Shown here: positions 42,629-45,702 of the stretch, piece after piece
Position numbering within the stretch: position 1 is the stretch's first letter
How the letters are laid out: each line of letters begins with the position of its first letter
Source of the DNA: Pararhodobacter sp. SW119
GTDB taxonomy: Bacteria > Pseudomonadota > Alphaproteobacteria > Rhodobacterales > Rhodobacteraceae
Length of the DNA stretch: 53,870 bases
Direction: 5' to 3'
Assembly: GCF_017811755.1 (NCBI RefSeq)
Contig: NZ_JADDJF010000022.1
Location: 1-53,870 of the forward strand
Program-made: the position numbers and the translations under genes
The notes under the pieces: generated by a model
Databases searched by the model: none
What the model saw: the letters and a program-made list of their open reading frames with translations, nothing else
Told to the model about the DNA's origin: nothing

Positions 42629-43135
42629 TCATGGCTCGTCAGGCAAATCGGGCAGCAGCATGTTCGGATCGAAATCCTCGTCCTGCGCGTCGAGCCAGGC
42701 ATCGGCCTTGGCGCGCTCTTCGGCATCGTAGGTTTCGGGTTTCCACAATTCGAAATGATCGCCGGCGGCGATGAAGAACGCCGCCTCGCCCAGATCCAGT
42801 TTCTCGCGCAGCTTCGAGGGCAGGATGATCCGCCCGTCGTCATCGACCTGCGTCGGGAAGGAATGGCCGTGATATATGCGTTCCAGAACCTTGCGTTCCG
42901 GCGAGCCCATCTTCATCCGGTCGATGCGGCGGTCGATCTTCTCGATCGCCTCGATGGTGAAGCAGTCCAGCCGCTTCTGCCGGTCGGTACCATAGACGAT
43001 GACCAGGTTGGGCCGCAGACCGTCACGCCATTCGGGATCGCCCGCCTCGACCACACGCCGAAAAAGGGCCGGGACCGACACCCTGCCCTTCGCATCCACC
43101 TTCTGGTGATATTCGCCGCGAAATCTGCGCAACAC
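42629..43135 (-). CDS. mraZ: Transcriptional regulator MraZ
   Basis: A 168-residue MraZ with two copies of the AbrB-like fold. The first repeat is [24 protein letters not shown] and the second includes [21 protein letters not shown] (each given in part: [20 protein letters not shown]). MraZ binds direct repeats upstream of its own operon and controls the division and wall genes. The start is a GTG ([11 protein letters not shown]) with GAGG ten bases upstream. It leads the cluster and lies 33 bases after the terminator of its own leader. Confidence 0.94.
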
Positions 43136-45002: not shown

Positions 45003-45023
45003 GCTGCATAGCTGCAATGCAGC
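45003..45023. promoter_or_regulatory. Inverted repeat upstream of the DUF1127/CcsR locus
   Basis: GCTGCAT and ATGCAGC are perfect 7-bp arms around a 7-base spacer. It lies just before the candidate promoter at 45033-45060 and could bind an activator or repressor of the stress locus. No regulator is assigned. Confidence 0.4.
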
Positions 45024-45032
45024 AATTAGGGA

Positions 45033-45060
45033 TTGTGCGGATGCAGCATCGGGTCCATCT
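45033..45060 (+). promoter_or_regulatory. Candidate RpoH-type promoter of the DUF1127/CcsR locus
   Basis: TTGTGC (45033-45038) and CCATCT (45055-45060) are 16 bases apart. The -10 fits the CYATNT form reported for RpoH-type promoters in Rhodobacter, and the R. sphaeroides locus is known to depend on RpoHI/RpoHII. The transcript would have a leader of about 60 bases before the ATG. Confidence 0.4.
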
Positions 45061-45125: not shown

Positions 45126-45344
45126 ATGGCGTATCTGACGCAGACAACCGGTCGGGAAGGCTTGTTCGACAAGGTCAGGTCGATGCTGCCGGCGGTTGTC
45201 GATACTTGGCAAAGCGCACAGCGGTTCCGCCAGACCTACGCGGAACTGGACGCCTTGAGCACGCGCGAGTTGTCGGACCTTGGCCTTTCGCGCTCAATGA
45301 TCACACGCGTGGCCTACGAGGCCGCCTACGGGCCGAAGGCCTGA
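45126..45344 (+). CDS. ccaF1: DUF1127 protein, CcaF1-like
   Basis: A 72-residue protein with the DUF1127 (YjiS-like) signature in its C-terminal half: FRQTYAELDALSTRELSDLGLSRSMI, seen as LDALSTRELSDLGLSRS. The start is the ATG of MAYLTQTTGREG. In Rhodobacter sphaeroides the gene before the CcsR RNAs (RSP_6037, CcaF1) encodes a small DUF1127 RNA-binding protein that affects RNA maturation and turnover. The same order here makes this the likely orthologue. The gap 44815-45125 holds divergent promoters and no other gene. Confidence 0.88.
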   Translation: MAYLTQTTGREGLFDKVRSMLPAVVDTWQSAQRFRQTYAELDALSTRELSDLGLSRSMITRVAYEAAYGPKA

Positions 45345-45381
45345 ACGAATTCCGAACCGCCCGCGGGTGGTTCGACATCAG

Positions 45382-45415
45382 ACGTTGGGCCCCTCCTCCT
45401 CCCTGGGTCCTTCGT
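45382..45415 (+). ncRNA. ccsR1: CcsR-type stem-loop 1
   Basis: Stem GGGCCC (45387-45392) with GGGTCC (45405-45410), loop CTCCTCCTCCCT, and an outer ACG/CGT helix across a small internal loop. The loop is complementary to AGGGAGGAGG-type Shine-Dalgarno sequences. First of four such RNAs after the DUF1127 gene. The bounds given cover the hairpin; transcript ends are not visible. Confidence 0.82.
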
Positions 45416-45417
45416 AA

Positions 45418-45451
45418 GGACGGTCGCCCTCCTCCTCCCTGGCGGCTGTTC
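45418..45451 (+). ncRNA. ccsR2: CcsR-type stem-loop 2
   Basis: An 11-bp stem (45418-45428 with 45441-45451, with several G-U pairs) presents the same CTCCTCCTCCCT loop. The stem sequence (GTCGCC/GGCGGC at the top) differs from the other three copies while pairing is kept, which supports a functional RNA. Confidence 0.82.
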
Positions 45452-45464
45452 GGAAAAGACGGTA

Positions 45465-45488
45465 CGGCCCCTCCTCCTCCCTGGGTCG
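45465..45488 (+). ncRNA. ccsR3: CcsR-type stem-loop 3
   Basis: Stem CGGCCC (45465-45470) with GGGTCG (45483-45488), loop CTCCTCCTCCCT. Spaced 42 bases from copy 2 and 39 from copy 4, measured between loops. Confidence 0.82.
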
Positions 45489-45500
45489 GCCGGCATCGGC

Positions 45501-45543
45501 GCGGTTGCCCTCCTCCTCCCTCGGCAGCCGCGCCTTTTCTTTT
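45501..45543 (+). ncRNA. ccsR4: CcsR-type stem-loop 4 with terminator tail
   Basis: A 9-bp stem GCGGTTGCC (45501-45509) with GGCAGCCGC (45523-45531) and the CTCCTCCTCCCT loop plus one extra C. The tail GCCTTTTCTTTTC follows, so this hairpin probably also ends the transcript of the whole locus. Confidence 0.82.
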
Positions 45544-45702
45544 CGCAACGCTCCCCCGAAGCTTCTGCGGCGGCAACCGGACGTCTTGGGGTTCTTTCCC
45601 CGCGGGCGCCCGCGTCGGCCCCGCTCTGCAGGCCTCTGGCCAAAACTTTCATTGCGGTTAATTTCTGATCTTTAGCCTTCTATATCAATTATTTGGCGAA
45701 GC

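Follow-up and report, generated by a model that had tools for sequence, protein, structure and literature searches.

The cuckoo RNA family and the CIN1 locus are reportedly the subject of work by Reinkensmeier and Giegerich from 2015. In Rhodobacter sphaeroides, the DUF1127 gene ccaF1 (RSP_6037) is reported to be cotranscribed with the small RNAs CcsR1-4 (CcsR1, RF02791), which are processed by RNase E, in a locus of the CIN1 kind (PMC10253847). CcsR of this species is reported to target FlhR mRNA (PMC8307010), and a review mentions in vitro binding of CcsR1 by CcaF1 (PMC10371769). In the Rhizobiales, the ar14 RNAs (RF02344; SmelA075 and SmelA099) are described as having three or four hairpins with anti-Shine-Dalgarno (aSD) loops and variable stems (PMC3927594). 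For the ar14 RNA NfeR1, mutations in the aSD loops were reported to abolish silencing of ntrB, and a site for the LysR regulator LsrB, TGCA-N6-GCAT, lies upstream (PMC10746234). DUF1127 genes and aSD-type sRNAs are targets of the LsrB/VtlR regulon of the Rhizobiales. Whether DUF1127 proteins bind RNA or protein is described as debated (PMC12501420).

The locus examined here lies in a window of 53,870 nucleotides from Pararhodobacter sp. SW119 (Table 1) and is very probably of the ccaF1-CcsR type (CIN1), with cuckoo-type anti-Shine-Dalgarno RNAs. The initial annotation had placed four hairpins with identical 12-base loops behind a DUF1127 gene, and the coordinates, the fold and the PF06568 match agreed with this. 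The loop 12-mer CTCCTCCTCCCT occurred in four exact forward-strand copies (loop and motif positions in Table 1) spaced by 36, 42, and 39, and these were the only exact copies in the genome (4.51 Mb), against one match of the reversed-pattern control. The motif CCTCCTCCC was found four times in the window versus 0.73 expected, a number reached in 1 of 100 shuffles, and its first copy lay 51 nt beyond the DUF1127 stop at 45344 on the same strand, so that the gene is upstream of the array as in CIN1. Each of the four copies folded into a hairpin that presents the motif in its loop, and the local stems of hairpins 1 to 4 had 9, 11, 10, and 12 bridging pairs, respectively. The fold of 45355–45545 had an energy of −85.7 kcal/mol (z = −3.40), and none of 200 shuffles folded as well. 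As described for cuckoo RNAs and CIN1, the window thus contains several hairpins with an unpaired CCUCCUCCC loop and variable stems. The hairpins alone span 45382–45534 and, together with the T-run, 45382–45543.

Table 1. Positions of the elements of the locus in the window (all on the forward strand)
Feature	Position	Strand	Basis
LsrB/VtlR-like box TGCATAGCTGCAATG	45005–45019	+	sole exact TGCATRGCWGCAWTG in the genome
Putative −35 element TTGTGC, possibly RpoH-type, or overlapping regulator site	45033–45038	+	16-sequence alignment
Putative −10 element CCATCT, 16 nt past TTGTGC	45055–45060	+	16-sequence alignment
ccaF1-like DUF1127 gene, 72 aa	45126–45344	+	PF06568, 48.3 bits
Extra stem-loop AACCGCCCGCGGGTGGTT between DUF1127 stop and hairpin 1	45355–45372	+	minimum-energy fold
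Hairpin 1, loop 45393–45404 CUCCUCCUCCCU	45382–45415	+	fold, pair counts
Hairpin 2, loop 45429–45440	45418–45451	+	fold, pair counts
Hairpin 3, loop 45471–45482	45460–45492	+	fold, pair counts
Hairpin 4, motif 45510–45521, 12-bp stem	45498–45534	+	fold, pair counts
TTTTCTTTT, T-rich run following hairpin 4, probable intrinsic terminator	45535–45543	+	sequence

Hairpin 4 (fold of 45494–45538, −25.8 kcal/mol, with a loop of 13 nt) is followed directly by TTTTCTTTT, and the two likely form a Rho-independent terminator, as the initial annotation had proposed. A generic terminator scan of the window, which admits loops of 3–8 nt only, matched no terminator. In the relatives' loci, a T-run followed the last motif in 59 of 80 cases, compared with 22 of 534 other motifs; the last motif stood without one in 21 of the 80 loci, including L069. 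Cleavage might plausibly occur in the A-rich stretch that links hairpins 2 and 3.

The genes around the locus in the window carried the expected Pfam domains. In 78 of 81 loci, an mrp gene lay upstream in divergent orientation (exceptions, L112, L137, and L139), and uvrD was found downstream in 46 of the 81, a set in which part of the loci end early. One locus, L181, has both neighbors and matched the CcsR1 model with 94.1 bits, and the likeness to R. sphaeroides ccaF1-CcsR1-4 in mrp and uvrD rests on it. By gene order, compared through L181 and the other relatives' loci, the window locus is a positional ortholog of the Rhodobacter-type ccaF1-CcsR ("CIN1", cuckoo RNA) locus. At a distance of about 2 kb from the DUF1127 gene begins an mraZ gene (Pfam MraZ; window 42629–43135, reverse strand); the R. 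sphaeroides sRNA UpsM is reported to derive from the 5′ UTR of mraZ (PMC7866481).

The tandem motif was present in 218 of 295 genomes of the family, in a search whose reversed control is not a clean null, as it also matches arrays (three matches in the Pararhodobacter genome itself). In 26 of 30 loci taken from this search, a DUF1127 gene ended 4–182 nt before the first motif; it was absent in L026, L037, and L039 and present only behind the motifs in L035. The DUF1127 protein of the window was matched in 16 of 17 other genomes of the genus that were searched. When 30 genomes were searched with it, 17 matched, the Pararhodobacter genome included, and motifs lay downstream of all 17 best matches; G306 (70% complete) and 12 genomes of other families had no match. 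In G307, two additional DUF1127 genes (L066 and L067) had no motif. A search by DUF1127 alone gave 158 stretches, and 79 of the best 80 carried the motif on the forward strand, L094 having none; these 80 contained 610 forward motifs and one reverse motif. The 30-genome search and the best 80 share 13 or more of the former's 17 loci, so the two sets are not independent. The 79 motif-bearing loci had 2–16 motifs, most often six (26 loci), and in L141 and L147 some of the motifs were distant from the DUF1127 gene. In L028 (G165), the DUF1127 gene is followed by an expanded array, 26 motifs within about 1.2 kb at repeating spacings. The viral contigs searched contained no relative.

The hairpins of these loci were then compared. 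The initial annotation had regarded the loop of the window as an extended form of a reported motif; CUCCUCCUCCCU is no unusual extension, being the commonest predicted loop, found in 214 of 545 unique hairpins. Swapping the 3′ flanks among the 545 hairpins raised the mean energy from −19.7 to approximately −10.3 kcal/mol and lowered the mean number of bridging pairs from 11.9 to 9.1–9.3. A threshold of at least six bridging pairs is a weak criterion, passed by 545 of 545 real hairpins and 488–507 of 545 flank-swapped ones. In 319 hairpins chosen by their loop, ten pair positions formed standard pairs in 73.4% of cases versus 51.3% after re-dealing (largest of 200, 53.8%) and 40–57% when slid, and changes on both sides of a pair numbered 867 versus 432 after re-dealing (largest, 489). 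In the five loci with four hairpins (the window, L068, L069, L120, and L136), 91.9% of the cells were paired versus 86.1% after re-dealing, and both-side changes numbered 11 versus 4.3, each reached by 0 of 500 re-dealt sets; further pair types (18 versus 16.3; reached by 130 of 500) were not unusual. Hairpin 4 was paired in 100% of the cells across the five loci. These covariation counts may be inflated by the relatedness of the loci. The annotation had stated that the stems differ with compensating changes and that the loop is conserved over the stem sequence, and both held in these comparisons; it had also made its reading depend on conservation of the stems in close relatives, where they paired beyond the re-dealt controls.

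At curated thresholds, Rfam models matched only two tRNAs in the whole window and left the array unmatched. With relaxed thresholds, the array matched ar14 (RF02344) at 57.7 bits, below the cut-off of 58.8, and CcsR1 (RF02791) at 37.8 bits on hairpins 3 and 4 and at 27.9 bits on hairpins 1 and 2 (45377–45454), so that the CcsR covariance search that the annotation had suggested fell short of the cut-off of 65.3. Three of 13 relatives' loci run against Rfam reached a gathering score, and ar14 scored 62.0 bits in L071 and 59.7 bits in L136, both of the same genus. The next ar14 match in the Pararhodobacter genome (contig C13, 31.5 bits) was rejected as a second cuckoo locus; it is without CCTCCTCCC and resembles a single G+C-rich hairpin. 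The CcsR1 model of Rfam comprises two motif hairpins in 83 nt, and the R. sphaeroides RNA RS0680a was described in 2011 as two stem loops with the motif in each (PMC3927594). With two hairpins per CcsR RNA, the four hairpins of the window correspond to about two CcsR units. The annotation had equated them with CcsR1-4; the assignment of the locus type stood, and this one-to-one mapping did not. One syntenic relative has 12 motifs arranged as six pairs. Across 80 loci, 356 of 526 gaps between motifs were at most 50 nt, 141 were 51–85 nt, and 29 were long. Short, medium and long gaps often alternate, yet 139 short gaps neighbored another short gap, which points to a tendency toward two-hairpin units and not to a strict rule.

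Compared with the described systems, the window locus shares with R. sphaeroides ccaF1-CcsR1-4 the DUF1127 gene, the downstream motif hairpins and the terminator-like end, and it differs in having four hairpins with short linkers and low CcsR1 scores. It resembles ar14/NfeR1 in its hairpins and in an upstream box similar to the LsrB site; NfeR1 has a sigma-70 promoter, whereas the array of the window lies behind a DUF1127 gene and scores below the ar14 cut-off. No difference was found from the cuckoo RNA and CIN1 traits as reported in the sources consulted, namely, a common loop, diverged stems and a DUF1127 neighbor (PMC10253847, PMC10746234, and PMC7143759).

By these likenesses, a single promoter would give a transcript that encodes the 72-aa DUF1127 protein, carries the four hairpins, or about two CcsR units, as its 3′ UTR and ends at hairpin 4 and the T-run. 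By analogy with R. sphaeroides, RNase E, influenced by the DUF1127 protein, would cut small RNAs out of the 3′ UTR. The CUCCUCCUCCCU loops of these RNAs, being single-stranded, may pair with purine-rich ribosome-binding sites (GGAGGAGG), and this pairing would, under stress, lower translation for part of the mRNAs. The promoter would be controlled by an RpoH-type sigma factor together with an LsrB-like LysR regulator. The pattern GGGAGGAG-N2-10-ATG was found at 20 sites in the genome, compared with 5 for the reversed pattern, and the open frames after 4 of the 20 were shorter than 95 aa. Five frames, picked by eye from the 20 and scanned, encoded a DctP-type solute-binding protein, a phosphonate-binding protein, an ABC ATPase, an AMP-binding enzyme and a 3-hydroxyisobutyrate dehydrogenase-like protein. 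The transport proteins among them fit the targets of NfeR1, which are reported to include such proteins (PMC10746234). The list shows that strong Shine-Dalgarno sites exist in this genome, and the genes behind them are candidate targets only.

Other readings of the array were weighed against the same evidence. Open frames of 214 aa on the forward strand and 56 aa on the reverse strand cross the array, and each spacing (36, 42, and 39) is divisible by 3, so that repeated PPPPW-like or REEEG peptides can be read on each strand; nevertheless, a coding array is hardly credible and was rejected, since the frame is lost in the nearest relatives, with gaps of 36, 41, and 37 in L069 and 36, 41, and 35 in L068, and the stems covary as RNA. 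Almost as improbable is a CTC repeat of low complexity, or a plain terminator region with several hairpins, that has no regulatory role. The loop is indeed a short CTC repeat and the last hairpin is terminator-like, but hundreds of copies share the same loop on covarying stems, with the 610:1 strand bias and the placement behind DUF1127 genes. It is also conceivable, albeit unlikely, that a protein, or translation as a whole, is the main target of the hairpins, which would then titrate the DUF1127 protein, Hfq or some other factor, or serve as a general anti-Shine-Dalgarno mimic. The many near-identical loops, 26 of them in L028, would suit titration, and CcaF1 reportedly bound CcsR1 (PMC10371769); the loss of ntrB silencing in NfeR1 loop mutants (PMC10746234) and the targeting of FlhR mRNA by CcsR (PMC8307010) argue instead for loops that act on particular mRNAs, which is the reading we retain.

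The upstream regions of the window and 15 chosen loci were aligned. Two conserved blocks were found, one resembling TGCATRGCNGCAWTG and the other consisting of TTGTGC, invariant in all 16 sequences, with CCAT 16 nt further on in 15 of them (L089 deviating). A promoter scan matched no sigma-70-type promoter upstream of the DUF1127 gene, and TTG and TAT are named in a published figure legend as parts of the RpoH consensus (PMC10673084). The first block, the box, goes unmentioned in the initial annotation. When the VtlR motif from the literature was read on the opposite strand, the window box agreed with it at 13 of 15 positions, and one form of the box in the family at 14 of 15. With up to two mismatches, TGCATRGCWGCAWTG occurred at 33 sites in the Pararhodobacter genome versus 7 for the reversed pattern. 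At the same tolerance, 77 of 78 relatives' loci had it no more than 420 nt upstream, L104 being the exception; the 78 are the 80 loci minus two with too little upstream sequence, and the background was 5 and 2 matches per strand in 315 kb. As the pattern was composed after 15 of the loci had been viewed, the 77 of 78 is partly circular, and a genome-wide test is fairer. In that test, the strict pattern GCATRGCNGCAWTGN{4,30}TTGTGCA, which misses the window itself because it reads TTGTGCG, was found in 66 of 120 family genomes, with no match of the reversed control. From 68 such sites, 34 were classified, 30 of them from the loci fetched and 4 being second sites. Among these, 25 led to a DUF1127 gene with at least one motif, 5 to motifs with no DUF1127 gene detected within 500 nt and 4 to a DUF1127 gene with no exact motif within 1400 nt; none led to any other destination, and the gap from box to TTGTGCA was 12–13 nt in all 34. 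In a 35th site (L308, G055), two boxes stand in tandem, the first leading to a motif pair and the second to a DUF1127 gene that is itself followed by a motif. In L267 and L268, the box leads to a motif pair with no DUF1127 gene detected, which may represent stand-alone anti-Shine-Dalgarno RNA genes, and L266 and L269 have a DUF1127 gene after the box and no motif.

The only one-mismatch box in the Pararhodobacter genome, TGCATGGCTGCCATG (G000:C160:101620-101634; L183), stands in front of an elongation factor P gene (Pfam EFP_N and EFP) and precedes TTTGTGCATGGCAGC, in a layout similar to that of the window. The bare 15-mer box occurred at 78 or more sites in 52 of 192 genomes of the class versus 6 for the reversed pattern. 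Of 38 inspected among the 78, the 36 outside G055 had neither a DUF1127 gene nor the motif downstream, most lying inside long open frames, and the bare box is therefore not specific there; both sites in G055, a genome of the same family, had a DUF1127 gene and the motif downstream. This sample is uninformative on the named Rhizobiales.

One of the 24 LysR loci of the Pararhodobacter genome, L185, encodes a protein that matched Agrobacterium tumefaciens LsrB (PDB 9HH1; PMC11975290) with 234 bits, the next PDB chain reaching 103. In the reverse comparison, L185 was the best of the 24 for LsrB (235 versus 129 bits), and the identity of the L185-type protein to LsrB was 40%. In a tree of LsrB, 23 LysR proteins of the genome and 7 proteins of other genomes, from which outside LysR families were left out, LsrB, L185 and the 7 proteins from other family genomes grouped together with split support of 97/94. 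An LsrB-like gene was found at 1e-80 or better in 115 of 120 family genomes, with a single match per genome. At this threshold it was absent from G022 (85% complete) and G114 (100%), both with the tandem motif, and from G028 (86% complete), in which the box is present. The arrangement of the Rhizobiales, with the gene adjacent to trxB, was looked for and rejected, the only LysR match on contig C1 being about 115 kb from trxB. An autoregulatory box was likewise rejected: in 8 loci, none with up to three mismatches was found ahead of the LsrB-like gene on its coding strand, and L210 had one three-mismatch box on the opposite strand. A LysR regulator of Brucella, apparently VtlR, is said, in the title of a 2015 article by Sheehan and others, to be highly conserved among alphaproteobacteria. 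In a 2025 paper, LsrB is described as unique to Rhizobiales (PMC11975290).

The window thus shares with the LsrB/VtlR regulon a similar box, DUF1127 and aSD-type sRNA genes behind it and a similar LysR protein, and it differs in the TTGTGC/CCAT core of its promoter and in an lsrB-like gene away from trxB. We consider it somewhat probable that an LsrB/VtlR-type LysR protein is, throughout the Rhodobacteraceae, the dedicated switch of a regulon of DUF1127 genes and anti-Shine-Dalgarno arrays, together or alone, using the box 12–13 bases before TTGTGC. That the box serves a different regulator, or is just an element of an alternative-sigma promoter, is a real, if less probable, possibility. LysR sites are degenerate, the adjacent TTGTGC-N16-CCATCT resembles a core promoter, the window has three copies of the minimal box GCAT-N3-TG-N3-T from the literature, and many relatives carry another base at its TG; G028, G022, and G114 and the missing box before the regulator gene point the same way. 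Against it stand the agreement with the VtlR motif, the LsrB-like gene in nearly all of the family genomes and the classes of downstream genes, which match known VtlR/LsrB targets. No literature linking CcsR with LsrB or VtlR was found in a search that left the main CcsR and cuckoo RNA papers outside its scope, and an earlier mention of the box is possible.

The locus is a real, ordinary-sized and compact copy of a known kind, in which the well-supported candidate regulatory link is the new part. The array is a further clean example of RNAs mimicking the anti-Shine-Dalgarno sequence of the ribosome, and the analysis corrects the mapping of its hairpins to sRNAs. Less expected was the switch-like DNA box that is conserved ahead of the locus; it gives a candidate regulator for a stress locus that has been described as driven by RpoHI/RpoHII. 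If true, the link between the box and LsrB would join the CcsR system of R. sphaeroides with the LsrB/VtlR systems of rhizobia, as the same circuit of regulator, protein and sRNA that the Rhizobiales have (VtlR/LsrB, AbcR/NfeR1, and DUF1127). With the same circuit in both orders, it would predate their split, and LsrB would not be confined to the Rhizobiales.
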